Shown piece after piece: positions 4,201 to 64,000 of a DNA stretch of 64,000 bases. The notes beneath the pieces were generated by a model. The model was not told the origin of the DNA and made no database searches. It was given only the letters and a program-made list of their open reading frames with translations. The position numbers and the translations under genes are program-made. Position 1 is the first letter of the stretch. The number at the start of each line of letters is the position of its first letter. The stretch is from Cryphonectria parasitica EP155 (taxonomy: Eukaryota; Ascomycota; Sordariomycetes; Diaporthales; Cryphonectriaceae), in contig NW_024468912.1 in the NCBI RefSeq assembly GCF_011745365.1, positions 4,588,001 through 4,652,000 on the forward strand, given 5' to 3'.

Positions 4201-4695
4201 AAACTCCGGGTTGGCGTCGAGAGGAACCTGCTGAGGCAGCACGGCACCAAAACTTTTGACGGATGACGAGGCCGGGCTCCAGTTCTCCCTCGGGATGGCA
4301 CCTGTCTCGTCGGCATCAATGCTGGCCTCGACCTTGAGGCCGAAATAGTTGGGCGAAGGGGTCCTGGCGGCATTCTGCGTCGTGACCTGGCCAATAGGGG
4401 TCGTGGAGAGGAGGTGTCTGGGCGTGGCGGAGGGAGGAGAGGAGAGCTTGGATGGAACGGCCTGTCCGGCGGCCAGAGGGCCCCGCGGCGATGCTGCGGG
4501 CGAGGAAGACTTGGTCGAGGTCTTGGAGGCGTTTGTCGATTGTGATCGAGCGTGAGAGACGGCTGAGGTGTATGTGTGGGAGTAGGACTTGGACGCCGTG
4601 GGAGGTTGCGGTCTCGTTGTCTTCATGTTGTAGTAGACGGTGCTGCTGCCGCTTCCTCCGCGTTCGCTGTTGCTTCTTGATTCGGGAGGAGCCAT
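1249..4695 (-). CDS. Rhodanese-domain protein tyrosine phosphatase (Pyp/PTP type)
   Basis: A classical tyrosine phosphatase expected to dephosphorylate phosphotyrosine, probably on MAP kinases as the yeast Pyp/Ptp enzymes do. The first ~340 residues are Ser/Pro-rich and disordered. A rhodanese/CH2-like domain follows at about 343-475; its loop reads YDAFSSEKRD, with Asp where the catalytic Cys would be, so it is probably a binding module. The PTP domain runs from about 600 to 1090, with KNRYKDILPFDH, the WPD loop (YPSWPDFGTP), the signature HCSAGCGRTGTF and a late Q-loop (SMVQTLRQF). Low-complexity inserts split the domain before the WPD loop, before the signature and after it. The frame is open from ATG at 4695 to the stop, but 2623-2703 is very likely an in-frame 81-nt intron (gtacgt...cag) inserted between PATFE and DFWSV, giving 1121 rather than 1148 residues. 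Family assignment is firm; the MAP-kinase role is inferred. Confidence 0.93.
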   Translation of the reverse strand: MAPPESRSNSERGGSGSSTVYYNMKTTRPQPPTASKSYSHTYTSAVSHARSQSTNASKTSTKSSSPAASPRGPLAAGQAVPSKLSSPPSATPRHLLSTTPIGQVTTQNAARTPSPNYFGLKVEASIDADETGAIPRENWSPASSSVKSFGAVLPQQVPLDANPEFEAFRRQADANRGGSGFNLGSSHFGGSSPFALAPGAAPARPQPSRWRTHGSETSPHVPASRPNNHHVEMVKALGPHPEKMDVDTDANSMRDSAYASSDSKRSSEASMNPPSFLNLPRHESPAQMDSSPEKRSGLSKVDDRHPRLSMMHTKADPPSPDPQRSFQGRAATLPAGPDQSVSGMIPPTELKAMLDAKDKNEVLLLDLRVSPQYAQARIKGALNLCIPTTLLKRATFNLQKLAQTFQGDADKEVFGRWPDTKHIVVYDAFSSEKRDAVSAMNTIKKFTNEGYKGTCHILRGGFKAFAAAFPDLIEYGNMAEQKPGRPTLSLPGAAPSIAPVVGGVMLPTAGITSNAFFANIRQNQDLVDGVGQMDINVPRGTDMEALPRWLQEAASVEDHGKQVSDKFLGIERDEQARMKVAYSYINPASVAKEVKDAAPRVQLSGIEKGVKNRYKDILPFDHARVKLEGKPEGTCDYVNASHVQASRSHKKYIASQGPLPATFEVRLFSSGSCSCFPVGSRFKLETNQRAQDFWSVIWDQDVRVIVMLTAESEGGQLKCHAYWKDREFGPIKLRALSEKKVSLDIDKQGSHSAADSEDTHSSSTAAAQQQEDAFGFGAAMAAADPGRRRANTTTTLETNQQTQAQTKPKAGSSSDTPFVVIRKFALSHAAHPFAPIREITQLHYPSWPDFGTPAQPSHLLALVELANMMQRSNLPIDVPGAISSRHGSLSEKSPKERPAPSPKKRSRSRASSNLPLAWWEEPESDQAVHPMLVHCSAGCGRTGTFCTVDSVIDMLKRQRIRNIRKANDNIERKLRGHKHQAQCRSDSDANVAMAGLSFGAPFQIRGRKMSRNNPVEDALSPSTKSPGSPAFPVTTTSMSISESPSPSCSSSDDDDDPKLDTSWIDDDTIDLISATVHDFRGQRLSMVQTLRQFVLCYETVIEWVWRLQERGGPAGSGVGAPGTGASGTAAMRARGRSGTVAHVGDLSK

Positions 4696-7600
4696 GCTTC
4701 TGGTTGTCTCGGGTCGAGTGGATGATGATTTCCTTCCACCCTGATGAGAATCCAGGGCCGTCGTGCCTTGTTGCTGGCCTCATGAGGGAACCATGTTCAC
4801 AGAGACATTGCGAGTAAGTTCAGTGATCGGGCGGGTTGAGTAATCGGAGAGGAACGTGACGGGTGTCTCGTGTTGGGTAATCGGTCTTTGTTTTCTTGTC
4901 TTCCACGGCTTTCCAGGCACGGTGAGGTGAATCAAGCAGGAAGCTAGTTGTCTGATTGAAGACTTGGGGACGGTGAGTCTTATGGGTCGTAGAGCCGGTC
5001 GTCTGTCCCCTCGTATCGAATAGTCGGGATATCTTGCTTGTGGCGTTACCAGGTGCGGGAAGGGCGACAACAGGATTGCTAGTGGGGTGGTAAAGGCAGG
5101 ATTTTAGGTGATCGAGGGAAGTGAAATGGGATTTGAGGTTCGAAATGGGAATCTTGGGCCAGGTCAAAGTTGGGGGGGGCCACCAAGGGGTGGGTGTATG
5201 TGTGGTCATTCGTCTTGCCCCCCCCCCCCAAACCCATGTCGAGTCCCTGTGGGGAAGATCCAACTTTTGTCGCGGCGAGTTGATGTCAGCAAGCCGAGTC
5301 CCTGTTAGGCAGTCAGGGGGGCTGCGTCTAGCGTCGACTATCGCATACACGTACCATAGTACATAGCATGTACTTTGTATTATAATAAAGCAGTGTGTGC
5401 GCAGTTTGGTCGAGGGCCCCTCTCTCTTATTTCTTTTCTATACGACAAAAACGTCTCCAACCTGATTCACGCAATACCGGTACCAGTTTTTTTTTTTTTT
5501 CATATCAGTAGTCCTATATGTTCACTCTCACGAGTTATCACTCCCATCATCGTCCAAAGTGGTGAACAGTAATTTCTACGAGAACCGTATGAGGTGTTGC
5601 ATTTTGAGAGAACAAAACTGTCGGGACTGTTTCCCACCTACAAAACGATACATGGCTCAAGATGTCCTGTCTAGTTCACGGGACTGGTTGATGAATAGCT
5701 CAGGGTCCAACCTCACCTGGAGAACTAGTGCTTCGGGAGGGACCAACAACCAATGTGATACACCCGGAGAATGCCCGCTCCATTCGTCTTGACCTTCTGG
5801 ATTGGGCATGAAAATTGATTATCAACAAGGACTTTGTTGAAAGAGGGGGGGGGTGGGCAGAGGGGGTGGCGACCCCCTGGGGGGACGGACTATCAACCTT
5901 ATCCGCGGATCTGCGGTCGGGTGGTTTTGTCAAGTGTGCCGTATAGCACGTTATGGTAGGTGTGTAACGCGCAAATGAAAGGCACTGTACATACACATAG
6001 ACTAAGTTGGCCAGAGTCAATGGTGAAGAGTGATAACAGATTATAGGTAAGAGAATTGTCAAGATCCCCGCTGCTGTCTCTGGAGCTGTCAACTTTAATT
6101 CCTTTCGACCGCCACACTGACCAAAAAGCGACATTTGTCAGGCGTGATACTGGCACTGTAAAACGGAAAGCTGTGACAATGGGCAGGACGGTACCGGTAG
6201 CACTGTGCTGAGACAAGGACGCTATACTATGGTTGGTGAGGGTGGCGCCACACTAGACAGGCAATGATCGACAACGCTTGGCAAATAGCGACATGGAGAT
6301 GATCATCATCAGATTCCCAAAGGTCTGTAGAAGGTGTGCTAGCATGTGAGGAAGTTTCAAAAAACAAAAATAGCCCGCAAACCCCATATACTCATTCACC
6401 ATGGCCTAGAAAGACTTGCGATATACTGAATACTGAATCAAACTGTTCTCCAAGTCTTGTCCAGAGAGCGAGAATTCGCAGCTTTTTCTCTCAAAGCACT
6501 TGTGGCCCCCCTGCTTGTCGTCATCATCGTCATAGTGGCCTGTTATTGACGTTACGGGCAAGCACTAACAAATAAATTTCTGTGCAGCCTTCCCGTCTTT
6601 TCTACAGTTCTACTGATTCAAAGCTGATGAGGTGATCCAGTCAGTCTCTAATCCAATGTGATTCTATTCCGTTCTCTCTATGTTTTCTATTTGATTGCCT
6701 TATAGTTTGTCAGGGCTGAATGCACGATTTAACGTAATCAGCAAATCCCTTGCCCTCCACCTGGCGGATGATTCGCACAGGTCTGTTGGCAATGGCTAGG
6801 TGCCGCCCCACGTGGGGACTTGATGGGTACCTGCCACGAGAACTTGTACGTACAACAGGGGTCCTCAATGCGTACAGAGTGGTGCTCTCGCGCGCCTATG
6901 ACGACATGGCCAGTGACCAGACTTGGAACCTCTTAGTGTGACATCCTTATCCGCTTCTCATCCAATCATTTGCCGGAGGATCCCCTGGACCCCTATTTCT
7001 CAGGGCCCGCCTGCCCCGCTGGACCTTAGAAAGGTACTTGGGCGCCACCCGCTGCCAGGGCGAAAGGTGCCCGTACCTGGATAGCAGATCGAGTCTATTC
7101 AGCCCCTCCCTAACCCAGTCAGGCACCCCGTCATCGTCATCGATGGAGCCCTGCCGCGAGTCTAGAACCGTTCCATCAGCCTCACCAGTTGAATGGCCAA
7201 GCCCTCCGTCTTGTCGATCACGAGCGTTCGCTTCTCCAAAAACTGAATTTTCTTCTTCTTTCTTCTCCCCCCCCCCCTTTCTACTGACGTACCAAATGTT
7301 GCACATAGCCGACTGGTGCGGATGTGGGATGATCCGTGACGATCGCACTTTAGATCTTGACGTGGCCATCTTGAGTGAAGGTTGAATAAAATAAAGATGC
7401 TGGGCAAGAAGTTGTATGCATAAAACCACGAGTCCTGCAAGACGAACCAAAAAGAGACCTGCGGAATCTCTAACAGCTTCGGGCAAGGGGTCTGCACTGA
7501 AAGAAAAATGGGGTTCCAGCTTGTTAAAGATGCAGGGTAATTCTTGGCACTCTCCAGGAATAGTTGGTCTTGAAATGGTCTGCGTTGTTTCTTTTCTCTC

Positions 7601-15284: not shown

Positions 15285-16875
15285 CGCCAGCGGCGTGGCT
15301 CCGTCGGTAGGTGTCTTGGTCGTGACGGTGTGGAGGTGCGTGGCTTTGGGCTGGGTGATCGGGAGGGGCGGAGTGATCGTGGCGATGGGCAATTCAGCTC
15401 AGAAGTTGTCCCGTATGGGTACGGGGTAGAGTAGCGTGTACGTCTGCAGCGCGTCGGGGAATGAGGTGTGTGGCGAGTGTGTACAAGTGCCGTGTAGGTG
15501 TGAGATTATTAATTAGGATATGCTGGAGGCCGTGTCTCAGATGGAGAACGGAAAAGATCAAGGCTGAGAAAGTTGTAGACACAAGGAGTTTGGTCGAGAA
15601 AGTTGAGATCGGAGGGTTAATTGGTGTTGAATGCGAATGTCAGCAAGGCCAGTACGAAATCGCCTGTCCAAGACGCAGGGGTGTTTTTTTCTGGACCTTA
15701 GGCCCGCTATGGCTGGGGTTCGCTGAGGGGCAGGCACCACGCTTTTCGGCTGCAGTGGTGTGGCCCTGGGTGGGTGGGTGAATGACCCGGCAAATTGGAG
15801 CGGGCACCGCAGTTCTGCCGCTAGTGGTGCTAGAACTTATGATACCAACTATGGTGGTAGCACTGTAAGTACTACAGTGTTTCTTGTGGCTGCAGAGCCG
15901 CTAAACCGGCAACGGTTGGCGAGTACCGGGGCTTCGGTGTACTGTACTGTACTGTATTGTATTAGGGCGTAACTGGGCTCACCTGCTGCTGCTGGTTCCC
16001 AGCCACTCATTGCTTGCTGCGTGGCCCAGCATCACTTTTCGGTCCTCATCGTGCATGACGTATCTTGGGCCTTGTTGCTTCTGCTGCTTGCATGGCAGCC
16101 CAGGCAAAAAGCAACCTCGACCTCTGCGGAGACCCTTGGGCAAAAAGCATCTGGCGAACGTTGGGCTGCCAGAGTTGCAGCAGGAGAAGCACAGGGTAAA
16201 ATAACGGGCGAGGGAGTCACGACCACACAGTACCACCGCCCTGATCCTAGAAAGTTTCTTACCCACTCTGCCTGGCCACCCTTTACACGCCTCGCCACTT
16301 TGCGCATTTTCGACTTTCATCTTCTCCCTGACTCCCAAACCCAACCTGTTCTCCTCCTTCTCGTCTCATGTTGTCTTGTCTATTCCGTCAATTGGACCGA
16401 CCAGCTTTCTGCATCATACTGCCGTCTTTCACCTTCTACAAGCAGGCATAGCAAGGTGCGGTTCATCTCACTGTCTTGGATTTGACCGATTTGAACTGGA
16501 TCTGGGCGGGAGGATCCTGATCAGAGACCCTGGACGCCTCACATTTCCGTTTGATACCCAGTCAGGCTTGCTAGGAAAGCTTAGCACCACGCCCCCACAC
16601 CCACACCCACGCACCCACCCCTCAAAACCCAGTCACTTTCATCACTACTTTTCCCACTTTTATTTTTCCTTCTGCCGCGGCTCTCCGGTCATCCACCTCG
16701 CCGGACCTTTTTACTCTTCTTCCCTGTTGCAACCTACCCTCCAACAGTTGCCCATTTCAATTGGATTGTTTGAAGTTGGATAACGCGCGCCGGGCCCTTG
16801 AATACGAGCTGACTCCAGCACCGCGTCACCTCCCGCCGGTGCTGGCCACACCTTGACAAGCTCGACGACCTCATC
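15285..16875 (+). promoter_or_regulatory. Intergenic region and long leader of the Edc4-like gene
   Basis: No gene is supported here. A short TGTAC/TACTG repetition lies near 15938-15962. From about 16300 the + strand becomes pyrimidine-rich (runs of TCTT and CCC up to about 16760), as is common in core promoters and long 5' leaders of filamentous fungi. The Edc4-like start at 16876 is preceded by tcatcatgg, a reasonable start context. Confidence 0.45.
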
Positions 16876-19800
16876 ATGGCTAGCTACGGTGGCGGAGGCC
16901 CCGGAGCTCCTTCGGGTCCTGGCTCTGGTGATGGTTCTATCAACTCCATTCTAGCCCAGCTACAGCAGCACCACAACCAGCGTGTTCAGTCCAGCGATCC
17001 TCCCGCCGCTGCCGCCCAGTTCCAGCAGCACCAGCAACAGGCTGCCCAGCAGCTTCAGCAGATGCAGTGGAGGCCCACCGTCGCTGACATGCGCAACACC
17101 ATGCACCTGCTCGGCGACGAGGCCCCCCGCCCTCATTGGCAACAGGAGGGCCAGCTTGTCGATTCCCAGGACAACCATCGCGGCAATTATGCTCTCCCAG
17201 CTGCTCCTACTCCTCCGTCTGGCGCCATGTTTCCTCCTGGCCTGATGGTGAGACCTGGCGCTGAAGGGGCCGGTGACCGCACCGCGAGTCTGCTCAGCTT
17301 GCTGAAGATCAGCAGCGGCCAGGGCGCTCAACAGAGCTCTTCTCAGCCCAGCCTTCCCCAGTCCCAGCCTAACGACCAGCTCCGTCGCGAATCTCTCATT
17401 CGCCATGCCTCAGACCAGGGAAATCATATGATTCACGCACCAGCTCCGTCCTCTGCCGATCCTACCGGCTTACTCGCTGCCCTTATGAAGGGCAAGTTCG
17501 AGACTGAGGTTTCAAAGCCGGAGTCACCACAGCAGCAGCACTCGGCACAACAGCCACAGCCACAGCAGCAGCCACAGCAGCAGCAGCAATCTCAGCAAAC
17601 GCAGTCGCTACAGCCCTCAAACAACTGGAACGCCGACCCTCCTCCTAAAGATACTCAGCGGTATCTGCTTGATCTCCTAAACCGGCCCAAACCTAGCCAG
17701 AGCGACCAGCCTGTTGAAGCTCCTGCCGAAGTTCCTGCCGAAGTTCCTGCAGTTCCGACTGCCCCTTCTTTCGATTTTGCTCCCAAGGATGTCGAGCAAC
17801 TCAAGTTCGAGCCCGCTCAATCCAGCCAGAACGGTTCCCCGGCTACGAAAGCAGCTATGTTTAGTCATGTTAACCCTTTCGAAGAGCTCATTGCTTCTGC
17901 ATCACCTCAGAACCGAGGCCCCAAGACGTCTGTCACGCCTGGCACTCCCCCGAGCATACAAGGACAGCCTCCTATCCAGATTCTGAAGAAGCCCGGCTCT
18001 GCGCATAGCCCCCTCGATCACAAGCGTCTGTCAAGTACCAGCAGCCACCTTGAATCACGTGAGCATGTGCGTCGCAAGTTCGATTCGACACCTACTTCGC
18101 AGCACTCGAACCCTCCCTACCCTGTCCGCGAGACCGAGGACAAGAATAAGGAGACTGTTGCCGAAGCAGTCAGTGATATTGCGGATAAGGTGGATAAAGA
18201 GGCCCAGGAAGCACTGACTCGTGCAGAGGATGAGCAGACGCAGGCTCGAATCACTCAAGAGCTCAGAGACATGATGGCGGCCAAGACGGATCAAGAGTTC
18301 GAAGAAGCCGCTGCTGTTGCAGCCTACGACATCAAACACGAGCTTGATAAGGACGAGAATAGCGACGTCTTGGGCACGACTCTGCAGCCTGACGTAGCGA
18401 AGGCTGTTCGCAACATCGTGGACTCTGCTGCCCAGGGCCCGGTAGCTGATAGCTGGGAAAGTGCTGAGGCCGAAGATGAGATTGTTGTCATCGAGGAAAC
18501 TACAAAGCCCATCAGGGTTTTCAACTTCCCGATGAAGCCCTGGATTGCTATCAATGTTCAGGACAGTGCCAACGACTCGCGTCCTGTAATTCGGGACGAG
18601 TCTATCCTCGACATTGCTAGGCTCAAGAAGGAATTCGACCAAATTGATCGCAACCTGGTAGCTGCATCCGAGAACTACCTGGCATACGGCATGTCCAAAG
18701 CCGGCGGCCTTCGTGTTATCAGACAGGATGATGGCCGTGATGCGAAGCTATTCTCTGATACGAAAGATCGCATCTTCAACCTCGCCATCTCTTCTACTCC
18801 TGCTGACCAGCACTCGACGGTCAAGGAGACCATCATTGGCACGGGCATCAGCGGCACTGTCTATTGGGTTCAGATCAAAGATGGGGAGAAGGACCACCTG
18901 GAAGATGCTCATCTGGAGCAGTACGGCTTTGCCCTACCTCCTAGCAGCACCCAGGAAGGCGACGCTCCCGGTGGCGTTCTCAAGACCCGAGCCCGCCCCT
19001 CTACAAATCATCCCGAGTATTTTGCCGTTGGGCGCGGCAAGTCGATCAACATCGTCTTTCCGTCCTTCGTCCTGCAGCGCAACCTGCTCAAGCCGAGCCA
19101 TGACCGCGTCGTCGATACCGACCGGCTGGCTAAGGAGTGTTCCCTGAAGATTAATACTGGAAAGGCTGGTAAGGACTTCACTTTCAGTCAGGATGATACT
19201 GTCGTGGTTTCTCTGGACAAGTCGGGCCGCGTCAAGTTCTGGGACGTCCGCGAATTGACGGCTATGGACGGGAATGGATGGCCTGCTTACACGTCTTTGG
19301 AGGTGAAAGAGCCTCTGATGACCTTGACAACGACACCCGAAGGAGAGAAGGCATGGCCGACTTCCGTGCTGCTGCTGGATAAGTTTCGACCGTACCAGAA
19401 GCGGACTGCGCTGCGCTACCTGATCGTGGGTATGAAACAGAACCACACGTTGCAACTATGGGACCTGGCACTGGGTAAACCGGTCCAGGAGTTCAACCTG
19501 CCACACAGCAAAGAGTCCGATGCCGTCTGCAGCGTTATGTATCACCCTGCCTCCGGTATCATCGTGGTCGGCCACCCTACGCGAAACTCCATCTACTTCT
19601 TACATCTCTCAGCCCCTAAGTATGCGTTGAAGAACAACTCACAGGTGGATTACATCCAGAAGCTGGTGGCTCAAGACCCGTCGATTGCCGTTCCTGACTC
19701 TACTGCGGTCATCAGCGGAATGAGGGAGTACTCCTTCGCCAACAAGGGTGTCCTGCGCAGCCTGTACCTCCTTCAGCAGCCTGCTTCTGCTGGCGATGGC

Positions 19801-22101
19801 GATGAGGCGACCCTGTTTGAGCTCTACGCCATGCACTCCAAGGGTGTGGCCTGTCTATCGATCAAGGCGCCGGATCTCGGCTGGGATAGGGACAACAAGG
19901 TTATGGACCCCGTCAATGCTATCGAGGCTGGCGTGGTCGAGATCGGAAAGCTGAAGCAGCCACCCCCTCAACCTCAGGCCCAGCCCGCCGAGGAAGCAGT
20001 CCCCGCACCCCAAGTCCGTCTTGCTGTCCGTCCTAAGGAGCCTGCAGCCGACACTGCGCCTGAGTTGCCAGTCACGCGAAAGGCCAGAGAGGAAGCATCG
20101 CCCTCCAAGCAGAAGGAGAGCAAGGAGGAGGAGCCTGCTGTTCCTGCTGCCGCCGAGAAGACCGAGAAGAGAGGTCGCAAGAAGAAGGCCGCGGCCGAGA
20201 AGGCTGCTACACTGGCAGCTGCACTAGCCGAGCACGACCGTGAGACTAGCCAGACTAACGGCACTACACCAAGGGTTGTGGCTACGACCACGCACAAGCC
20301 TGCAGAGGCTTCCAAGTCCTCCTTCACATTCTCGCAAGAAGTGGACAGTCGTATCAACAGCATGGAGAAGCGTCTGATGGACAGTATCACTGGCTCGATC
20401 CAGTCCGAACTGGTCGGCCTCCGCAAGGCTCTTGACCGCGATGCGCAGGCTCGCGACAGCAAATTTGACCGTCGCCAGGACGAGCTTCTCAGCCAGGTGT
20501 CTTTGTGTCTTAACGAGAACTGCCAGGACGTGCTCACCAAGATCGTCCAGGATGAGCTTGGCGGCCCTATCACGACGTTGATCGGCGATGTCTTGACGGA
20601 CGCCGTGGTCAAGCAGCTTGACGGCAAGCTTGGCAATACCGTCGCCCACTCAGTCCAGAGAGAGGTGCAGGAAACCCTGCCGCGTGCGATGGACCAGGCC
20701 CTGCGAAAGCCAGAGCTGGCCAAAGCTGTCAGTGACAAGGTGGTCCGTACCCTCTCTAACAAGATCGACGAACAGCTGTATGCATTACTCGATGATAGGA
20801 TCATACCGCGTTTCACCAAGGTCGCAACCGAAGCCGCCAGCGCCTGTGGCAAGGAGGTTTTGGCCAATGTCACGGCCCAGTTCGATGCAATGGAACAGAT
20901 CCGCGTGAAAGACGTGCAGAAGTTTGAGCAACTTGTTGCTCTCAGTACCAGCATGTCGGAGACTCTCAGTACCATGTCGAGTGCCCAGGCGCGTTTCCAA
21001 GAGGAGATATTGCGCCTGCAGACCCAACTCGCCCAACAGCGTCAGGTCTCGCCTGCGCAGGCTGGTGGACGACACATGGGACAAGTTAGCCAGGGACGCG
21101 GAGGAAACGGCGCGTACCACAGCCCGTCCCACAGCCAGACTCAAGCTCTGCAGCACCTCGCTGCCCCTGCTGCTCTCCCTCAACAACACTTCCAGAGCCC
21201 TCAAGGATCTGTGGCAGCTAGCCAATACACCAACCCATCTGTTGCAGGCCTGACTTCCTCACCGAACCAGCAACAGCACTGGGCTGGCAGCGCCAGCGCA
21301 ATTGTGTCTCCACAGCAGCAGCAGTACTCGGGCCAGGCAGTGCCGCTGCAAGCCGTAAATCCCAGCATCCATGCCTTACAGCACTCGCAGCAGTTTGGCA
21401 GCCCCGCGAGTCAGACGTCCAGCCAGGTCGTCAGTCACATCTCAAGTCAACACCAGGCGGTCCAACAGGCCCAACAGCTTGCTGGGGAGCAGGTGGAATT
21501 TCAACAGACGACCCAGGAAAACCGAGAGCGTCTGGAGCTCGAGGATGTGTGCTCGCGGGTGCGCAATCATATGCAAGCGGGTAATTACGATGACGCTGTC
21601 ATGACCTGGATTCAGGAGTCAAAGGATGGGCAGGCCGTTTGGAACCAGGTGCTTGCGAAATACGATCCAGAGTTCATCCGCAACTTGAACCCCCTCCTCC
21701 TGCTGACAGTAGCGGCAACTATCACGTCGGAGCTAGACAACGCACAGGTGCTGCACAGGCAGCTGGCCTGGACCGAGATGGTCCTGATTCAATTTTACGA
21801 GGCTCTGCCGAGGATTGTAAGTACTGTAAGCAACTGGAATTCCAAGTTTTTGGGCGGGTCCCTTACGGCTGCTGTGTGCACTATGTCTGCTAACACTCTA
21901 CAATAGGAGGGACAGGTCCGTGAGATTACCCCGCGGGTCATGTCTCTGGTCAAGAGCCGCCTCGAGCACGTCTTTGTCCGCCTCAACATGGCGGTGCCCA
22001 ACGACCCGGTGCTACGCAACTTGTCCGGCATGATTGATCTCACTCGTAAGATCAATGACGCGATGGGCCGTTCAGGTTCCATAGCCGGCTCTGCGTACTA
22101 A
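16876..22101 (+). CDS. Edc4/Ge-1-like WD40 scaffold of mRNA decapping
   Basis: A 1711-residue protein in two exons (16876-21816 and 21907-22101; 90-nt intron gtaagt...aatag). By family it should act in cytoplasmic P bodies as a scaffold linking Dcp1/Dcp2 during 5'-3' mRNA decay. The N-terminal ~350 residues are Gln/Pro-rich with polyQ runs. A WD40-type propeller spans roughly 580-940, with repeats such as GRVKFWDVRE and HTLQLWDLAL. A charged Ala/Glu/Lys linker and a helical, coiled-coil-prone segment follow (about 1145-1380, starting FTFSQEVDSRINSMEKR). A second Gln-rich stretch lies at about 1390-1545. The conserved C-terminal helical domain starts near 1550 (ELEDVCSRVRNHMQAGNYDDAV) and continues into exon 2. 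Domain order matches Edc4; the low-complexity regions fit P-body condensation (inference). Confidence 0.88.
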
Positions 22102-35826: not shown

Positions 35827-37701
35827 TTACGCGTTGCAGGACGCAAGTGGTCTAAGCACCTTGTCGAAGAAGGCATCGTTGAGCATCTTGGCTTCCCATT
35901 CGGAATCCCCCGATCCCACCCCAAGGGCCTCTGTTCCCTTCAGACACGTCTTGATCACATCAACAAAGATGGACCCCACCATAGCCTTCAGCCTATCTCC
36001 TCCCTCGCCATCCAAGTCATTACATAAAGCCTTCGAAATTTCGCGCAACTTCATCTTCCTAAACCTCTCCTCAAACGCCGGCCGCCAGTACGCCACCTCC
36101 AGCAGCACAATACCTAGACTATACACCTCCTTAATCTTGGTCCACCCATGTCCTACCTCTGGATGGTAATATACATCCAGCTCCGCTGCCCCTCCCGGCC
36201 GCCCCTCCAACGACTCATCCCCTGCCGGCCGACTATACTGGAAACCGACCAGGTACGGCACCCCAACGCCACTGCCGTCCCGAACATTCTCTCCGTCCGC
36301 AGCAGGCCCAAGCAAAACATTATCTCCCCTCAACCCCTTATGCACCCACCCTGCCGCATGCAGCAGCCCTACTGCGCTGGCTAAGCGGTACGCCAGCCGA
36401 AATCGCTCCCCGAGCGCAGGCCGCGTCTTGTGCTGCGCCGCGGTCCGGATCGTATCCAAGAGCGATCGTGGCACGGATACGGAGCCAGCCGGTAGGCGGT
36501 ACACGATGCCTAGGCGCTGTGCGGCGCCCTTGTTGCTCTCAGAATAGGCTTCGTCGTCGAGAAGGGCGAGGCAGGGGAGGGAGGCGAAGGCGGAGGCGGT
36601 GGGTGAGGTGGCAGAGAGCAGGCCGGCGAGGGCGCGGATGCGCAGCATGATAGCAGCGCAGGCGGGCGAGGAGGAAGAGACGGTCTTGTACTCGATGAGG
36701 ACTCTGGTGGCTGGTAAGAGCGAGGGCTCGGGCTCGGGCTCGAGGTAGCGGCCAAGATGCCGCCCAGTGGTGTCGGCGGGGTCGGCATTGACCTCGAGGG
36801 GCGGTGGGACATGGGACGAGGAGGCAGAGGTGATGGTGATGAGCTTTACTTTCTCAGCGGCCTGGGAGAGGTCCATGGCTTGGATGGCGCGGACCTGGGC
36901 CAGCAACTTCACCAAGGAGGATGGGGTGTTGAGGGCCTGCGGAGCAGACGTGAGCGCAAGCTGGTCCGACACCCCGGCGGTGATTCGTGCGACCATATTC
37001 TCTACGTCCAGGTCCTCAGGCTTGTTTTTGTCCCAAAACTCGGCCCATTGTGTAAAGACATATGTCGCGATCTGTTTCTCGTCCACCTCTTTGGGTCTGA
37101 CCCTTTCGCAGAAAGCGTCAAGGCCGTGCAGAATGGAGTCGATGATGTGCTTTGCATCCAGGCCGCTCAGCTTGGCCACGTCCCAGAGATTTTGGTTGAG
37201 TGTGGCAAGATCTGACAGCAGTCTTGTGAACTGCTCTCTGTGCTTCAAGGTCCACTTTAGCCGCTTCCAGAAGTTGGCCGGCTTCTGGACTTTCTGATCT
37301 GTAATAGACCCAATCCACACACTGCCTTTGCTAAAGTCGACGGCTGCTGGCCCTTGGGCAGCGGGGACTGAGCGCTGAAGGTCATACGTGCCAAGGAACG
37401 TGTCGCCGGCCGTCTCCTGCTTCCGCCATATCTCAGCCAGGATGCGTCCAATCGTGACCTGCGTCTCATAAGGCATGTCAAGGATCTGGCAGTTGCTGGG
37501 ATCATTGATCTTGAAATGCTCGCCCCACAACTTGAATTTGAAGGTCTCTACCTGGTACTGAAGAGCCGTATAGTGCAAGCCAGTATCTGACGCGAAGACC
37601 TCAGTCAGTGTGTTAAAGCCGTCCACAGCTCCCTGAAAGGCAAGAAGAAGACCTGCAGCCCCGAGCGTCGTGCTAACTATAAACGAGGCCGGGTCTGCCA
37701 T
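35827..37701 (-). CDS. HeLo-domain protein fused to a kinase-like (pseudokinase) domain
   Basis: A single-exon protein of 624 residues, starting at the ATG of MADPASF; an in-frame ATG four codons upstream is possible. Residues 1-~200 fit the HeLo (HET-s/LopB N-terminal) fold: a hydrophobic first helix (FIVSTTLGAAGLLLAFQGAV) then YQVETFKFKLWGEHFKI. HeLo domains are membrane-active cell-death executors in fungi. The C-terminal ~260 residues look like a protein kinase (RLAYRLASAVGLLHAAGWVH, KEVYSLGIVLLEVAYWRP), but the catalytic loop reads HKGLRGDNVLL, with Gly replacing the catalytic Asp, and the DFG position reads GFQ, so it is probably inactive. This order, four-helix killer domain plus pseudokinase, parallels animal MLKL. 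It converges with the kinase-ankyrin-WW gene, only 100 bp between stops, which suggests a functional pair (inference). Confidence 0.85.
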   Translation of the reverse strand: MADPASFIVSTTLGAAGLLLAFQGAVDGFNTLTEVFASDTGLHYTALQYQVETFKFKLWGEHFKINDPSNCQILDMPYETQVTIGRILAEIWRKQETAGDTFLGTYDLQRSVPAAQGPAAVDFSKGSVWIGSITDQKVQKPANFWKRLKWTLKHREQFTRLLSDLATLNQNLWDVAKLSGLDAKHIIDSILHGLDAFCERVRPKEVDEKQIATYVFTQWAEFWDKNKPEDLDVENMVARITAGVSDQLALTSAPQALNTPSSLVKLLAQVRAIQAMDLSQAAEKVKLITITSASSSHVPPPLEVNADPADTTGRHLGRYLEPEPEPSLLPATRVLIEYKTVSSSSPACAAIMLRIRALAGLLSATSPTASAFASLPCLALLDDEAYSESNKGAAQRLGIVYRLPAGSVSVPRSLLDTIRTAAQHKTRPALGERFRLAYRLASAVGLLHAAGWVHKGLRGDNVLLGPAADGENVRDGSGVGVPYLVGFQYSRPAGDESLEGRPGGAAELDVYYHPEVGHGWTKIKEVYSLGIVLLEVAYWRPAFEERFRKMKLREISKALCNDLDGEGGDRLKAMVGSIFVDVIKTCLKGTEALGVGSGDSEWEAKMLNDAFFDKVLRPLASCNA

Positions 37702-39883
37702 TGTTGATGACATCTGGTGTAGGAAATCGTCTGTTTGGTATTCGAGGGTAGACTTGGGCAGCAATGATACGGCACAAAACAGAGCGATTAATCGCTGGCG
37801 ATTCGCTATCAGATCAAGAATGATTCTTGAAGAAGAAGAGGAGGAGGAGGAAATTATCTGTGCGGGTGCTCTGTTGATTTCGACAGCATGCAGTGCTCTC
37901 TCAACACCATTCGACTCTGGAGACGCTGGCGTCAACTGGTTCGAATGCGGCTGAGGCGCCTAAATGCTGACGCCTCGGTAGCGCTCTTTCTGCAGGCCTG
38001 GTCACAGACACGAAGATGCGAATCCCGAAGCCAAGCCAAATAAGTTGTAAAATGTTGTTCTTGTCTAATGACAGGAGTTATCAAAATTCCTCTTTAGTAA
38101 GAAAGCTACTTGGGGCCATATGCGACTCCACATAGCCGATGCTAGTGACTTCGACCTCCTCCAGTGTGTGGCATTTAACATCAGAATGTTAGGCTATAGA
38201 TACTATTTTCGCATCGAAGACTGCACATTATAGTTTGATCCGATCAACAGGTTTCTATAGTTTTTCAGTCTCTCAATATGGTTCAAAGGGAAAACAGATA
38301 TCCCATTGGTGCCTCGATACTCTGGCAATAGTTACAATTCACTTTACCCCAAACTATGATCTTTGCTACAACCTGATTGAGTTTATTCCTTAATTTTAAC
38401 AAAATAAACAACTTTCGCAAGCAATTATCCTAGAAGAGAAGCACAAGTGTCCACAATCCATCTTACAAGCACCGATGCTCAAATTATTCTCATAGAGGCC
38501 TTAGGCTGAGGTTAGCAGGCGAGCTTCTGCTGATACAACTTTTCCGAATCAAGAAAAGCTACGTACGTTTGCTAGATACAATGCATATTATAGATGTAGT
38601 AATTAATGAATCTTGTTGGAAAGCTTTTTGTGGAGGAGAGTTGTTTAGAGAGGCGCGAGGTGTTGCGAGGCAGGAATTCAGGGCGCTGAAAGTCCAGGCT
38701 CTCAGCCCCCGACATCGACACAGACGTTTCAGGACTTTGATCGCATTCCTAGTCTATTCAGTGTAATGGTAACTTACTTGGTCATCCCGACTTCTCTCTA
38801 GACTTGCCCTCTCTTCTCATCTTCGACATTGTCGGCCTTGGTGGGCTTGGTTCTGGGACCTGGTCCTGTTAGTCCCCCTCTCTTTCGTTCGCCCATTCTC
38901 TTGCGCCTCTCTCCATCTACCTCTGGGCCCCTTTCGCGTCACCATTGCCTCGTTTAACGCCTGCGCCTGTCCAAGTCTTTCACCTTAGCCTTTTTTCAAA
39001 GGCTATAGCGACTTGCTAGATTTCTGTTAAAGAATAGTTCTCATCATAAACTTCTGAACATGAATGTCAGAATAGCTGCTGGTCCGTTACCACGACGCTG
39101 ACAAAATGCGATTCCACTCGTTCAAATAGCCAGCGACTCACTGTGCCCAATTTTTGCTTAATTACTGCAAGAATCAGCTTTATACAACCAGAGACTGATT
39201 AGCTATCAAACTGTGTAAATAGCACTGCAGTGATTAGTAGATACCTCAGTAGACGAAGAATTTATGCGAACAAGAGCAGTGCCAAGTATAAGTCTCGTAT
39301 AGGAAACAAAGTCTGAGTTGCGATGGGACTATACGCTAGAAGTGAAACTATTGCATCGTGTAAATGCAATACTTGGGTTAATGACTGAAGAGCTTAATTC
39401 GGTGGGATCAAACTTGAGGTTATATCCAGCTCTTTAGTCCTAGACCTCAAGACTCGACACTTGACTTCTAATGATGAATTCTGTCATTGAGTTTGCATAG
39501 ATGATGACGCAGTGTTCTTGGATTGTTTAAACTTCGAGTATGCTAAAGCTTTTCCCACAACAAAATCGTTAATACAAGCAGTTTGCAAGTCAATGCAGAA
39601 TACTAAGGCTTTGCGGTTTAAGATGTGATCCTTACATGTTGTTCCGAGATGTACACTTCATCAGAAACATTACGTGGCTATGCTCAATCTACTGCTCGGA
39701 CCCTCGGAGAAGAAAGAGAGAAAGAAAACAATTTGTCACTTTGTTTATAACAACTTATCTAGTGACAGAAGTCAATGTTGGAAACATTATTCACGAAGTG
39801 ACAGAGATCTAGGGTCGCTGTAGTACTGGCGAAAAGGAAAGAAGGTATTGACTTTAAGTAAATACTATATCCATATGAAGCTA
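37702..39883. other. AT-rich non-coding stretch
   Basis: About 2.2 kb dense in A/T and stop codons on both strands, with no supported frame. The first part is the promoter of the HeLo gene. It may be a relic worn down by mutation, but no transposon protein or terminal repeat is recognisable. Confidence 0.45.
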
Positions 39884-48529: not shown

Positions 48530-51500
48530 TCACTCACCCTCAGTCTGTGAATCTCCCTCCTTCTCTTGCTCCTTCTTTTCCCGCTCTGCGGTGGTCTGCT
48601 TTTCCCACATGGCATGGTAGCTACCTCTCTTGGCGAGAAGCTCCGAGTGCGTACCGCGCTCAACAATCTTACCCTTGTGCAGCACCACAATCTGGTCAGA
48701 ATTCGTGATGGTGGACAGTCGGTGTCTGTGCGCGACAAGCAATATAATTAGCCAGAACACTGGGTGAAACAGTAGACAAGGGGGGGGGGGGGTGGTTGGT
48801 TGAGTTAGTAGCAAGGATTGGACTTACGCAATGGTGACCGTGGTTCGGCCCGAGGTCACTCGCTCTAGTGCATCCTGGATCTGCTTCTCGGTGTGAGAGT
48901 CAAGCGAGGCGGTGGCTTCGTCGAGAAGTAGGATGCGCGAGTCTTTAAGGATGGCCCGAGCGATGGCAATCTATTGAAATTGTATATTATGTCAGCACAC
49001 AAAAGTCCAATTGGCTGACTGGGAGGCTTTTTGAGAATCCGTCAGGCGCACGACTTTCCTTCCTTTCTATTTTTGTCACTTTTTCCTGAGAGAGTTTGGA
49101 AAGGAGTAGAAGAGAGGGAGAAAAGGGGGGAGGGTCTGTGAAGTTGGAACGTACCCGCTGGCGCTCACCACCAGACAGCTTCAGTCCGCGTTCTCCAACC
49201 TTTGTCTCATATCCATCTGGGAAGGACAGGATCCGATCATGAATATTCGCAGCTCTGCACGCTTCATAGACGTCGGCTGCAGAGGCGTTGGGATTGGCAT
49301 ACAACAAATTGTACATGATCGTGGCGTTGAAGAGGACCGTGTCCTGAGGCACAACACCGATGCTCCTGCGCAGGCTGTCGAGCTTGAGATCTCTCAGGTC
49401 GTGGCCATCGATTGTGATCGAGCCTTCACTGACGTCGTAGAATCGGAAGAGGAGCTTTAGACATGTGGACTTGCCGCCGCCACTTTCGCCGACGATGGAC
49501 GTTTTGGTGCCTGGCGGGACCTTGAAACTGATGCCATCGATGGCCGGATCTTTGACCTTGCCTTGATACGAGAAGCGCACATTCTTGAACTCAATCTCGC
49601 CCCTTGGATTTGGGAGCTTAACGGCGTCCGGCTTCTCCACGATCCCGGATGTCTCTTTGAACTGTGATTTTGTGTTACAAGAACGAATCAGTCACTTGGT
49701 CTTCCAATAAGCACTTTGCCGGCCACAACTCACCAGGTCGAGCATGCGCTCCGCCTCAATCAGGTTGTTTTGGAGCATCGTGTAGTACGTCCCAAAGAAG
49801 TTCAGAGGCCCTTGAAGCTGCGTGAAATACACAATGAGGCTGACGAATTCAGCAACGGTTTGTTGGCCAATCGAGATTTTGTACGCAGACACAGCAACCA
49901 GTAGCGCCGTTCCAAGAGAGAAGATGGAGCTCTGCGTTAGATTGAGGGCGTTCAGAGACCACATCACGAGCCGCTCCGCCTTCTGGTAGGCGACGACTTG
50001 GCCCTGGAAGCGTGCCGTCTCAGGCACAACAGCACAGTTGTGCTGCACCGTCTCATACGCCATGATCGCATCCGTCTTGACGGCATCCATCTCTCGGCTC
50101 TTCATCGCCATATCTCTTCGCTGCCTGCCGCGCCACTTGGCCATGTAGATGGTCAAAAAGATGTAGGACCACATGATGAAGAAGACGATGATGGTGTAGA
50201 AAGCATCGTACTTGACAAAGAAGAGCACGCCGGCCACGAAGATGTCGAAGATCATGGGGAACACCTGAAAAACAAAGTTTTCCAGGAATGTGTTCATTGC
50301 GGCGCCACGACTTAGCGCGCTGGTCACCTCGCCAGTCTTCTTGCTCAGATGGAAATCCAAGGATAGACCAAGAACGTGCTCGAAGGCCGCGCAGGACAGT
50401 CGTCGGAAGAGGGACTGTGACACCGGAATCCAGAGGACAGATCGCGCAGCACCAAGAGCACCCGAGTTGCCCTGCAGAGCTCTGTAGATGACATAGAGGA
50501 TGATTTCCTTGTATGGTATACGGCCGTATCCCAGAGATTCAACAAGCACGCCCAGTTGCAGTGGAACCATGAAGTTAACTATGCGCTGGCCGATCAGGAG
50601 GATCACGCAGAGAAGCACTACGGCCTGGTAAAGGTGTGAATCCTTGGGCCTGATGAAACAGCGATTTATCAGTAAGCTGCTGAAATGCTTCATGTTGGAA
50701 TCAACGCTCACCATAGGTACGGGAACAAGACTCGGAACCCGGCAAAGTAGTCGAACCAGCCTTTGTTCATATCTCCAGGCTTGGCTGCTGGTGGCGTTGG
50801 GGCATGTGTATGCGCACCGTCATACCCGCCTGCAGGCCCTTGTCCGTTTTCGAGCAGGCCCTGACGCTCATCTGCAGTGGACTGGGACGCGACTGATTTC
50901 ACAGCATAATATCTGCGGACGAGCGAGAGTGTCATGACAAGCAGTAAGAGAATCCGGGCGATCCCCACGCCGAACAACTCATCCAGCAGATGTGAAGGTA
51001 CATGGATCGAATGCTGCTCCGTCCTGAACACGGCTGCAATGACTGCCTCGAGGATGATGCCGGTGATCCATGAGTGGCAGTTTGACGCGGTGGGCGACCA
51101 CGGCCCGTCGGGATTGGGAAGCAGTCCAGCTAGGAAATACAGCAGAACGCTAACATGAGCAGCCTAGAATTCTGGTTAACTTGAAATTCTCGGCCATGAC
51201 AGCAGCAACCAATTAAGAAGGCAAGATTACCAGATACGCGCTGAATGGGAAGCCGGCTCCCTGCTGGGGGTCATCTTGTCCGGCTGCAGCGTCTCGAACC
51301 ACAAGAACGATGCTTGGAAGCTACACGAACAGATTATCAGGTAAGCATGGTCTAGTTCAGTCGAGGATCCAATACATACGTATAGTAGGCAAAGAAAGGC
51401 CTGCAGGACCCAAATCAGTCTGTCGTAGAAGCGGCGGATGCCCTCGGCATCCTTTTCTTCACTCGAAGAGCCAGAAGTGCTCTTTCCCACACGCTTGCGG

Positions 51501-57151: not shown

Positions 57152-59248
57152 ATGGCGTCAATAGCCTCACAGATCCCTGTCGTCATCGCATGGCCACTTT
57201 CAGCGGTATGTAGGAAATACTTCGCCTTTCTTCTTTCTTTTTTTTTTTTTTTTAAAAAAAAAACCCCCAGTCTCGTTTGAGATTGTCTCTATTCACCAGG
57301 CACTGACAGAGGACATCTACTCTGAAATAGCTAGTCGGATACTTCCTCTTTAGCTTCATCTACAACATCTACTTCCATCCGCTGCGTAACTATCCTGGGC
57401 CTCTGCTATACCGTGTCTCCAAGCTTCCTCGCACATACAGTATATTCAGGGGCGAATGGTCGCGAGAACTGCTCGGCCTTGCTGAGAAATACGGCCCCGT
57501 CGTCAGGGTAGCGCCCAACGTCCTTGTATACACCACTTCGGATGTCTGGAAGGATGTCTACGGTCACCATAACGGCGCCGATGTCAAGGGCGAGGAGTTT
57601 GGGAAAGATCCACACTTCTACAGAACCAAGGGCGTCGAACCCAACATCTTGGCCGAGTCACGAGACAACCACGCCCTCATCAGACGCCAGTTAAGCCATG
57701 GCTTCAGCGAGAAGTACCTCAGGGCGCAGGAACCCATCATCAAGGGTTATGTCGACATGTTCATCAACGGCTTGCGGGACCGATGCGTCGCTGATGAATC
57801 ATCGGAAAAGTCGGTGGCCCCGACTAAGAAAACAGCCTTTGATATGCGGCATTGGTTCAACTTTGTCACGTTCGATGTCATTGGCGACCTGGCCGTCGGT
57901 GAGCCGTTCGGATGCCTGGAACAAGGAAAGCTCGATGAGCGCGTGGCGTTCATTGAAAAGGGCATCCAGACGGGCAGTATTGCGTTTGTCCTCAAGGACA
58001 TTGGGCTCGAGCGATGCACACAGTGGCTGGCCCGCAGGCTCGTCACGTTCAGACGCACGGTGAAAGACAAGATGTCGGCCGTGCTTAGACGACGCATGAG
58101 CATGACTATGGAGAGGCCAGACTTGATCGAGGGACTACTGAAGAAGCAGAAGGATTGGGTAAGTCGAGACTCTCTGATCAAGATGCTATATTTTGATGTA
58201 ATTGACTTGGTACTGACTGAACCAGGACATTTCATTCGAAAGACTGAGGACCAACACTACGTTTCTGTATGGTTTCATCCCTGAGTTCTTCCTAATTTTC
58301 TTTCTGGTTATTCTTTTTTAAAAATTCTATCGGTCGCTCTTCTCTACTTAGGCTAGATGTCAGCGCTGAAAGGACAAAAGCTGACGTGTTGTCAATAGCA
58401 TCATTGCCGGTTCGGAGACCACGGCCACGACCCTGGCCGGCTGCCTCTTCCTCCTTCTCAAGAACCCTTCCGCCCTGGACAAGCTGAAGAAGGAGATCCG
58501 CTCTACCTTCCAATCTGAGGACGAGATCACTTTCGCATCTGTGGAACGTCTTGACTACAGTACGTGTCGACCAAGTTCATTGGCATGCTAGCGGCCCTGA
58601 GCTTTTCTCCCCCAACCTTTTTACGCAACAGCCTTGTGGCCCATAGCCTAACTTCAATACCTGCAGTGATTGCATGCTTCAAGGAGACCTTCCGCATGTA
58701 TCCACCCGTGGCTGGCGAAATGCCCCGCGTCGTGCCCAAGGGCGGTGGGCACGTAGCTGGCCAGTTCGTTCCCGAGGGCACTACTGTGGCCGCTGCCCAA
58801 TATGCCATGTATAATACAAGCAGAAACTTCAGCGACCCGTTCAGCTTCAAGCCTGAGCGATTTCTTGAGCCCGAGAAGTTCCCTAACGACGATCGGAACG
58901 CTCTGCAGCCGTTCAGCTCTGGCCCCAGAAACTGTATTGGCAAGAAGTAGGTTTCTCAAATTCGTTTACAATCATTCTGCCCTCCCTGCTCTTAGTCACC
59001 ATTTATCGTTGGTGTGGTCTTTTGTCACGCCACTTACGGACCGCTCTTTACCTGCGTGGAACTTGGTTTTTAGGCTGACATTATGCAACAGTCTGGCATA
59101 TGCTGAGCTGCGCACGATGATGGCCCGTCTCATTTACAACTTCGACCTGGAGTTGGTCGACCCAGACGACGATTGGATGAACCAAAAGGTCTTCTTCATT
59201 TGGACAAAGCCGCCTCTGAATGTATACTTGACGCCCGTCGAGCGATAA
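57152..59248 (+). CDS. Cytochrome P450 monooxygenase (fungal, CYP65/trichothecene-type group)
   Basis: Six exons (57152-57205, 57331-58158, 58226-58266, 58399-58559, 58667-58946, 59092-59248) give 506 residues, the usual P450 length. A membrane anchor (MASIASQIPVVIAWPLSALVG...) leads into FIYNIYFHPLRNYPGP, the proline-rich hinge. The I-helix oxygen-binding motif is AGSETTAT, formed across the exon 3/4 join. The K-helix ExxR is KETFR, followed by PERF. The heme motif FSSGPRNCIGKNLAY crosses the last intron, with its Cys ligand present. All catalytic landmarks are intact. It would hydroxylate or epoxidise a small molecule at the endoplasmic reticulum with a P450 reductase. No synthase or other pathway gene lies next to it here, so the substrate is unknown. 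Confidence 0.93.
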
Positions 59249-61630: not shown

Positions 61631-62619
61631 TTTGAGGGTTGTTGTATATAATTACTTATTTGTCAGGGGTGGCCCCTAGGGAATGATTAATTCAAAGTCG
61701 AGAGGCGTTTCGAGTCCAGAGTCTGAGTATGAAGTGATCGAACATTCAGATTCTCGGAACGATCTCGACGCGAATATAAAGCACAGAAGATGTCCATTGT
61801 GTTGGCTTACCAGGTCGGTTGCTTTGCTGCAACAATAAAGCTAAGAATACAAAGTAGTTCACTTGTCAAGATGAGATAATGGAAGTCATGAACAATAGAT
61901 GCTTTCAGTCATCCCGCTCTTTTCTTCTACTATGACTTTGTACAACTCCTTCGCATCCTTTGTTTGGGGAGCATTGGCACCCGCTGGGGATGCTTCTTTG
62001 TGCAGCTTTGCTATACATGTATTCCCTTGTCGTAATAATGGAAGACCATGCCCTCATTGCCTTTGCTTAAAGAGCAATCCCGCATTTCGAGTAACAATAG
62101 CAAAGATGATGACGGCCAATCATATAATGGTCACGACAAAGAGGGGGATCAACAATGGGCAGAACTGTGGCCATTGTCTGACTTCTCAATAGCACACTCA
62201 CAAAGAGGATTGTCCTGTCCGCCATTTAACGGTAATTGTGGTGCTCGATTGCGTCACAATAGACGGCCCCGTGTGAGAGTCGATGACTAGAGCCGCGTGG
62301 GACAGATGAAACTTTTGGCGAGTGGGACAAATGTAACTCAGACTCACTGGGAAATATGAGTCTGGTTCGGAGGGAATAAGGTGCCATAAGGCATCGTTTG
62401 TTATTTGATCTGGCGCGGCTCACAACTTCAAGGTCTCAGTCCACATGTCGTTGGCCTGGCCAAACCCCTAGAACAACTTTCAGTTCTAGCAGAAACGGAA
62501 AATATTGAGATAAGACGTCCTCAGTCACCAGTCAAGCTGACAAAAAGGCATACATGAAATTGTGCACGGCAAGATGGAAAGTTGGAAGAAACAAAAAGAA
62601 AAGAAAGGAAAAAAATAAA
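61631..62619. other. Intergenic stretch
   Basis: The left part is the promoter of the two-exon gene. Frames on the + strand (about 61899-62290) lack any domain. Purine-rich sequence appears near 62576-62620, ahead of the tRNA terminator on the other strand. Confidence 0.4.
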
Positions 62620-62626
62620 TAAAAAA
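62620..62626 (-). terminator. RNA polymerase III-type T-run terminator of the tRNA gene
   Basis: On the minus strand a run of T (complement of taaaaaa in this interval) lies about 25 nt after the tRNA 3' end, and a second T run follows at about 62609-62615. Such runs terminate RNA polymerase III, which supports the tRNA gene being a normal transcription unit. Confidence 0.75.
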
Positions 62627-62650
62627 GTAATCGAAGATCGACGGGAATTG

Positions 62651-62803
62651 AGCCCGACGTGGGGGTCGAACTAGAAGCTATTGTTAGACAGTGTAATAAC
62701 CACATCTTGACGAACGATTTGAACATACCCCACAACCTTGAGATTTTGTCAGAATCGGAAACTCTGTAAGAGTCTCACGCTCTACCGATTGAGCTAGCCG
62801 GGC
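62651..62803 (-). tRNA. tRNA-Lys (anticodon CTT) with two insertions
   Basis: After removing two insertions the gene folds as a standard 73-nt tRNA. The acceptor stem is GCCCGGC/GTCGGGC with one G-U pair and T as discriminator base. The D arm is GCTC-AATCGGTA-GAGC, the anticodon arm TGAGA-CTCTTAA-TCTCA, the variable loop AGGTT, and the T arm GTGGG-TTCGACC-CCCAC. The layout matches fungal tRNA-Lys(CUU). The first insertion, 22 nt at 62745-62766, sits after position 37 like every normal tRNA intron, and its AGAGT can pair with ACTCT of the anticodon loop. The second, 58 nt at 62671-62728, lies between T stem and T loop and is abnormal. The B-box core TTCGACCCC stays intact after it, with AG from the insertion in front. 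It could be functional or a disrupted copy. Confidence 0.85.
62671..62728 (-). other. GT-AG intron-like insertion inside the tRNA T arm
   Basis: On the minus strand this 58-nt piece starts GTATGT, the commonest fungal spliceosomal donor, has GTCTAAC as branch site and ends CTTCTAG, with about 14 nt from branch A to the end. Removing exactly GT...AG restores an unbroken GTGGG-TTCGACC-CCCAC T arm. It does not sit at the position cut by the tRNA splicing endonuclease. Confidence 0.75.
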
Positions 62804-63024
62804 GTCTTGAAGACGCTTTCGTGTCTGGTTGAGTTTCAGGGCCTGAAAAAATTCTTCATATGTCTTGTGGGTACGGACTGACTGGGCCCTGACTCACGGC
62901 GTCCGTCGACATCACATCCTGCCCCTGACCATCAACCCTGTCCAGTGGTCTTGAATTCCATACAACAGCATAAAATTCACATTTACAAGAAAAAACTAAG
63001 TTCTCTCGGACCGAACCACCTTCT

Positions 63025-64000
63025 TCAGACAGACTCCATCGTGACATTCAAACCGGTATCAGCCAAGTCACCGCCATGCTCCAGCAACGCAAATGTATAC
63101 TCGCCCTTCTCCAGCACCCACTCATCCCAGCGGTTGATGATTGTCAGATAGCGGTCGACCTCAAGTTCCATGCTGACGCTGACCTTGTCCCCCGCGGCGA
63201 CATCAACCCGCTGAAACGCGACGAGCTGCTTCACCGGCTGCACGATGCTGGAGACCCGCCCGAGGACGTACACTTGGAGCACATAGCTTCCATCGATGAC
63301 ACCATCATTCCTTACTCTCGCTGAAAAGGCGATGGTATCCCCAGAGGTAAATACGAGTCCTCCGTCCTGGCTGCTGGCGGTGAAGTCGGATACACTGAAC
63401 GAGGCGAAGGAAAGCCCGTACCCGAACGGATAGCACGGCTGGGACCCGACATCGAGATACTTGATCTTCCTGCCCAAACTCTTGTAGTTGTAGTAGATCG
63501 GTATCTGTCCGACATGCCGTGGAACACTCACGGGCAGCCTCCCCCCAGGATTGACCTTGCCGAACAAGACGTCAGCGATCGCCTGTCCGCCGCTCTGCCC
63601 AGGAAACCAGGTACTCAGGACTGCAGCGCTCTGATCATAGTACTCGGCAATGGCGAACGGTCGGCCGCCCTGCAGCACGAGGACGACGGGCTTGTTAAGG
63701 GCGTAGATGGCTGTGGCAAGTTTGTCCTGGCTAGGGGCGAGGCCCAGCGTGGCGCGATCACCACTCTCGCCGTCGCTGTTCCAGGCGGCGCCCACGGCGA
63801 GCACGATGACATCTGCGGACTCGGCAAGCTGCACAGCCTGGGAGACGGCATCGTCGGCCGGGTCGCTGCTGACGAGGTTCCAGAACAGCAGGAGCTGCGA
63901 GTTGAGAGAGACCACATTCTCCGTCTTCTTGTAGAGGTTGAAGGCTTGGTACTCGATGCGAATATCGTAAGTCTCACCCGCTCTGAACATAAACGGAGCA
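63025..64000 (-). CDS. GH3 glycoside hydrolase, C-terminal part (cut by window edge)
   Basis: The frame is open to the window edge, so the N-terminal catalytic barrel is missing. The visible ~320 residues start in what looks like the end of a PA14 insertion (FRAGETYDIRIEYQAFNL). The GH3 C-terminal domain follows: AVQLAESADVIVLAVGAAWNSDGESGDRATLGLAP, PVVLVLQGGRPFAIAEYY, STWFPGQSGGQAIADVLFGKVNPGGRLPVSVPRHVGQIP and YPFGYGLSF. A fibronectin-III-like tail completes it (VRNDGVIDGSYVLQVYV, KQLVAFQRVDVAAGDKV). GH3 enzymes release glucose or xylose from beta-linked substrates; beta-glucosidase or beta-xylosidase cannot be decided from this part. No lesion is visible in the part present. Confidence 0.92.
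   Translation of the reverse strand, partial: APFMFRAGETYDIRIEYQAFNLYKKTENVVSLNSQLLLFWNLVSSDPADDAVSQAVQLAESADVIVLAVGAAWNSDGESGDRATLGLAPSQDKLATAIYALNKPVVLVLQGGRPFAIAEYYDQSAAVLSTWFPGQSGGQAIADVLFGKVNPGGRLPVSVPRHVGQIPIYYNYKSLGRKIKYLDVGSQPCYPFGYGLSFASFSVSDFTASSQDGGLVFTSGDTIAFSARVRNDGVIDGSYVLQVYVLGRVSSIVQPVKQLVAFQRVDVAAGDKVSVSMELEVDRYLTIINRWDEWVLEKGEYTFALLEHGGDLADTGLNVTMESV

Follow-up and report, generated by a model that had tools for sequence, protein, structure and literature searches.

A tRNA-Lys(CTT) gene in the window, the 64,000-nucleotide stretch of the Cryphonectria parasitica EP155 genome analysed here, is interrupted twice, once by an ordinary tRNA intron of 22 nt between tRNA positions 37 and 38 and once by an insertion of 58 nt between positions 53 and 54, in the T arm. 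Judged from its sequence, this insertion is very probably a U2-type spliceosomal intron that resides in a polymerase III tRNA gene alongside the ordinary tRNA intron, and production of this tRNA probably also calls for the mRNA-splicing machine. It is also likely that half of the tRNA-Lys(CTT) copies found are spliceosome-dependent, that they draw on two unrelated splicing machines, and that the final AG of the intron doubles as part of the promoter.

With both introns taken out, the mature tRNA comprises 72 nt and folds into a cloverleaf with all four stems and CTT at positions 34–36, and its lysine identity is read from this anticodon. The sequence-only reading of the locus had given the coordinates, the two lengths (22 and 58 nt) and the GTATGT, CTAAC and TAG motifs, all of which were correct on re-reading, and the observation is confirmed. 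The features of the gene are collected in Table 1, together with its copies elsewhere in the genome and the coding neighbours in the window. These neighbours (HeLo domain, EDC4-like propeller, GH3, P450) are suggestive of a filamentous ascomycete, and a protein search with the HeLo-domain frame had no hit.

Table 1. Positions of the tRNA-Lys(CTT) gene and its parts, of the copies of this gene, and of Pfam-matched coding neighbours (window positions, or handle and position for copies elsewhere).
Feature	Position	Strand	Remarks
tRNA-Lys(CTT) gene	62651..62803	-	three exons (37+16+19 nt) and discriminator base
tRNA body	62652-62803	-	
Discriminator	62651	-	
Exon 1	62767..62803	-	tRNA positions 1-37
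Ordinary tRNA intron	62745..62766	-	at 37/38, 22 nt
Exon 2	62729..62744	-	tRNA positions 38-53
T-arm insertion	62671..62728	-	at 53/54, 58 nt; candidate spliceosomal intron
Candidate 5' splice site	62723..62728	-	GTATGT; in 3/3 insertions
Candidate branch site	62683..62687	-	CTAAC, whose branch A (62684) is 13 nt from the intron end
Candidate 3' splice site	62671..62673	-	TAG; YAG in 3/3 insertions
Exon 3	62652..62670	-	T loop, 3' side of T stem and acceptor
Putative A box	62785..62796	-	TAGCTCAATCGG; read from the sequence, box placement after an excerpt of PMC3978253
Putative B box	62662..62672	-	AGTTCGACCCC; last AG of the intron and exon 3
Likely polymerase III terminator	62609..62626	-	T7 and T6 runs
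Copy C4 (window)			with T-arm insertion
Copy C5	C5:619435-619646		with T-arm insertion
Copy C1:5229784	C1:5229784-5229963		with T-arm insertion
Copy C9	C9:2714597-2714753		without T-arm insertion
Copy C1:4760047	C1:4760047-4760194		without T-arm insertion
Copy C2	C2:2351893-2352049		without T-arm insertion
Coding neighbours in the window (Pfam)	63028-63999, 57334-58281, 49695-50819, 35830-37959, 16816-21903, 1252-4779		GH3 C-terminal and Fn3-like, P450, ABC transporter membrane region, HeLo domain, EDC4-like propeller, tyrosine phosphatase with rhodanese domain

The assembly that contains the window (43.8 Mb, 17 contigs) was searched for copies with 251 bases around the gene as the query, and the nine matches obtained correspond to six tRNA-Lys(CTT) genes, a count that may be a lower bound. 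The T-arm insertion is present in three of the six copies found, in every case at the identical 53/54 junction, and the matches to C9, C1:4760047-4760194 and C2 break exactly at this junction because those copies lack the insertion. The mature sequence is identical over 72/72 nt in all six aligned copies, each of which also contains a 37/38 intron of 19 or 22 nt. Since three uninterrupted copies exist, this tRNA has other sources besides the intron-bearing copies. Several intact copies elsewhere were one of three signs that, taken together, would have meant a pseudogene with a chance insertion in the sequence-only reading, and this one sign is borne out in part. The flanks of the intronless C9 copy are mixed, with a 3' side like that of C5 (with intron) and a 5' side like that of C1:4760047-4760194 (without intron), which suggests exchange between copies. 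The 11 nt past the discriminator (window 62640-62650, minus strand), CAATTCCCGTC, are identical in 6/6 copies, and the sequence beyond them differs. A small hairpin in the 5' leader that takes in the first two tRNA bases (window 62802-62816, minus strand) is predicted in five of the six Lys(CTT) copies, with bases changed on both sides, and is absent in C1:5229784.

The insertions of the window copy, C5 and C1:5229784 are 58, 59 and 58 nt in length. All three begin with GTATGT and end with YAG, and each contains a single YTRAY motif (CTAAC, CTAAC and TTAAC, respectively) whose putative branch A lies 13, 12 and 12 nt from the end. An extended GT donor, a YAG acceptor and a branch site near the 3' end, as expected of U2-type introns, are therefore present in the sequence of 3/3 insertions. 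Pairwise alignments of the insertion interiors are no better than those of shuffled sequences (p = 0.21, 0.37 and 0.28). Identical columns in the three-way alignment between the signals number 7 of 34 versus a shuffle mean of 2.5 (P = 0.008), an excess that hints at a remote common origin of the insertions. The 19-nt exon 3 is unchanged beside the diverged intron in all three of these copies. Because other similarity between the introns has been nearly all lost and the splice signals have been retained, the T-arm introns look old, with chiefly these signals kept. The grammar of the insertions was matched by none of 1,105,320 pieces of 57–59 nt, cut from the two strands of 186,560 control bases, and base composition predicts 6.5e-8 matches to it per piece; this grammar was drawn afterwards from the three Lys introns, and the control consists of other sequence of the same genome. 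An introner element, of which near-identical copies would be expected at many sites, was considered as a source and rejected, as the introns occupy one site, their interiors have diverged, and the window gene used as a query matched the insertion nowhere but in this gene family.

Coding genes of this genome provide a comparison for the splice signals. Three introns of coding genes, hand-picked from a long list of candidate joins because they adjoin actin-family protein matches, are 80 nt (GTATGT, CTGAC, TAG), 97 nt (GTAAGT, CTGAC, TAG) and 58 nt (GTAGGG, CTAAC, CAG) in length. An open-frame test of donors gave 4/74 for GTATGT versus 7/53 for GTAAGT and 8/63 for GTGAGT, with 549/16,543 for all donors, and by this test GTATGT ranks among the minor donors of the coding genes. 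Over the whole genome, the loose pattern GTATGT..CTAAC..YAG shows no enrichment (235 matches versus 277 for the reversed control), and among the first 30 of the 235 matches, all of them on C1, 8 join open frames of at least 40 codons, versus 154 of 1,680 shifted controls. On the basis of these comparisons, the parts of the splice signals are used by coding genes in this genome, but the exact combination seen in the Lys introns is not dominant. The combination of a TTCGA loop, a YTAAC branch and a GGTNNGT donor at 53/54 was found only in the three Lys genes; the reversed control of this TTCGA-loop pattern also gave three matches, so that the evidence lies in the places of the matches and not in their count. 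Variant matches with a TTCAA loop (two) or a YTGAC branch (two) were discarded, as ARAGORN found no tRNA at 4/4 of them with the piece either in or out, and the same test with the piece out gave a tRNA at 3/3 Lys genes. Among the part of the candidates that was scored, no intron was present in the U6 snRNA gene (at least one match) or in the 5S rRNA genes (at least 23 matches, 21 above the cut-off).

The insertion splits the B box after GG, and the last two bases of the intron, AG, take the place of those GG. Among 52 tRNA genes, the equivalent place of the B box is occupied by GG in 29, AG in 17 and TG in 2, with 4 genes in which it could not be recognised. This set, which includes one intronless Lys copy, comes from the 61 genes that Rfam listed after scoring 63 candidates out of 990, less nine further copies of genes already taken. 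The A box and the TTCGA in the B box lie 123–126 apart in the intron-bearing copies, and the largest value in 48 other measured tRNA genes is 95. The longest T runs inside the three T-arm introns are 2, 3 and 4, and T5–T7 runs start 19–26 nt past the discriminator in all six copies. Because the B box is rebuilt by AG, the T runs within the introns do not exceed 4 and the terminators are kept, the intron-bearing copies appear suited to transcription by polymerase III, although their long box spacing calls for caution.

Neither ARAGORN nor Rfam (gathering score) reported a tRNA in the window, because the insertion breaks the T arm. ARAGORN with introns allowed detected a tRNA in 0/3 intron-bearing copies when these were intact and in 3/3 when the T-arm insertion was left out. 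As both programs are blind to the window gene, genes of this kind may have escaped notice in the genomes of other fungi. The label that ARAGORN assigns to all six Lys(CTT) copies, including the intronless ones, is Val(TAC), because the program does not place the 37/38 intron, and automatic annotation may repeat this label for the intronless Lys(CTT) genes.

Of the two options that the sequence-only reading had offered, a transcript that needs both the spliceosome and the tRNA endonuclease or a disrupted copy, the former is favoured, because the insertion occurs in three of six copies, the mature sequence is the same in all six, and the signals are kept in insertions that have otherwise diverged. 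Polymerase III would transcribe the gene from the A box and from a B box rebuilt by the final AG of the intron, and would stop at the downstream T runs. The spliceosome would then excise the 58 nt in the nucleus, from the observed GTATGT to the observed TAG, and the T arm would be restored. The ends would subsequently be trimmed, and the tRNA endonuclease and ligase would take out the 22-nt intron at 37/38 to yield a normal tRNA-Lys(CTT). We infer the order of processing, with the spliceosome first and the endonuclease last, and it fits the retention of the 37/38 intron in those copies that lack the T-arm intron. If the intronless copies arose by loss via an RNA copy, that RNA would have lost the T-arm intron only; it is just as possible that certain copies gained the intron, or that copies exchanged sequence. 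The tRNA endonuclease of yeast takes out its intron outside the nucleus. The T arm is needed for nuclear export of tRNA, and a dual-spliced tRNA would thus offer a clean test of the processing order.

Besides the lack of enrichment of the loose pattern, the minor place of GTATGT among coding donors and the long box spacing, two points count against the spliceosomal reading: the identity of the exons in all six copies could be due to gene conversion, and the three intact copies could supply the tRNA. Both belong to a different account, which we consider improbable, in which the interrupted genes are dead copies whose old insert is never removed and whose exons are kept identical by gene conversion from the three intact copies. 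The existence of these intact copies agrees with this account, as do the mixed flanks of C9 and two statements in a passage of PMC4090602, namely that single tRNA genes of eukaryotes with an insertion in the T arm are regarded as pseudogenes and that gene conversion evens out tRNA copies. However, conversion should homogenise the whole intron, whereas the interiors have diverged and GTATGT, YTAAC and YAG are kept in 3/3; moreover, exon 3 is unchanged directly next to a diverged intron in each case, and dead copies would have to make up half of those found.

An archaeal-style ectopic tRNA intron, which the tRNA endonuclease would cut via a bulge-helix-bulge (BHB) as in the 53/54 introns of some archaea and the T-arm introns of nucleomorphs, would leave these same three signals unexplained, and such an origin appears very improbable. 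Although position 53/54 is also used in archaea (PMC4090602, in part) and red algal tRNA introns of 11–69 bp interrupt the A and B boxes (an excerpt of PMC3978253), the yeast tRNA endonuclease is described as cutting only at 37/38 (a passage of PMC4033280), and the strict 4-bp central helix is absent from 3/3 insertions in both registers, a weak test that ordinary 37/38 introns fail too. Both the dead-copy account and an endonuclease-cut intron are much less likely than the spliceosomal reading. It is hardly credible that the tRNA sequence is spliced only within a polymerase II transcript, for example as the 3' part of a neighbouring mRNA, and not as a tRNA precursor. The window tRNA does lie approximately 220 nt past the stop of a GH3-type frame on the same strand, but the open frames near the other two intron-bearing copies are arranged differently, and all copies retain the exons of the tRNA together with the A box, the T runs and the trailer.

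A recent review describes tRNA splicing as a separate process that does not depend on the spliceosome (PMC13149111), and no spliceosomal intron in a tRNA gene appeared among the open-licence matches listed, as judged from titles and the starts of abstracts, with most subscription papers and all preprints lying outside this search. If the spliceosomal reading is true, these would be, within the literature searched, the first known case of nuclear tRNA genes that require the spliceosome, and translation capacity would be tied to splicing capacity. A tRNA needing both machines would also mean that the spliceosome is able to act on short, tightly folded polymerase III transcripts beyond U6. The nuclear rRNA genes of ascomycetes contain mRNA-type introns in a stable RNA that is not made by polymerase II, but their host gene is transcribed by polymerase I, unlike the tRNA host here; a title on such introns stands among the references of PMC11782384. 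Ectopic BHB and nucleomorph tRNA introns, which occur in D and T arms, are similar to the Lys insertions in lying outside the anticodon loop, with 53/54 as an archaeal site (an excerpt of PMC4090602); they are attributed to the tRNA endonuclease, whereas the Lys insertions have GT–AG ends and branch-site grammar and no strict BHB.

The fungal U3 snoRNA is similar in that a spliceosomal intron interrupts a small structured RNA and copies with and without introns occur, although U3 belongs to another pathway than the Lys tRNA. According to a portion of a 2017 survey, frequent interruption by an intron was known for just two small structured RNAs, U3 snoRNA and U6 snRNA (PMC5832005). Fission yeast U6 snRNA is made by polymerase III, and its intron is of the mRNA type and spliced as such (a passage of PMC10484740). 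The Lys genes are like the U6 genes of fission yeast and other fungi in combining a spliceosomal intron with a polymerase III transcript whose folded RNA is restored by intron removal. Different from the tRNA host here, U6 itself belongs to the spliceosome, and its intron, situated close to the catalytic bases, is thought to come from reverse splicing (PMC10484740, same passage). U6 snRNA and U3 snoRNA are the nearest precedents for a spliceosomal intron in a tRNA.
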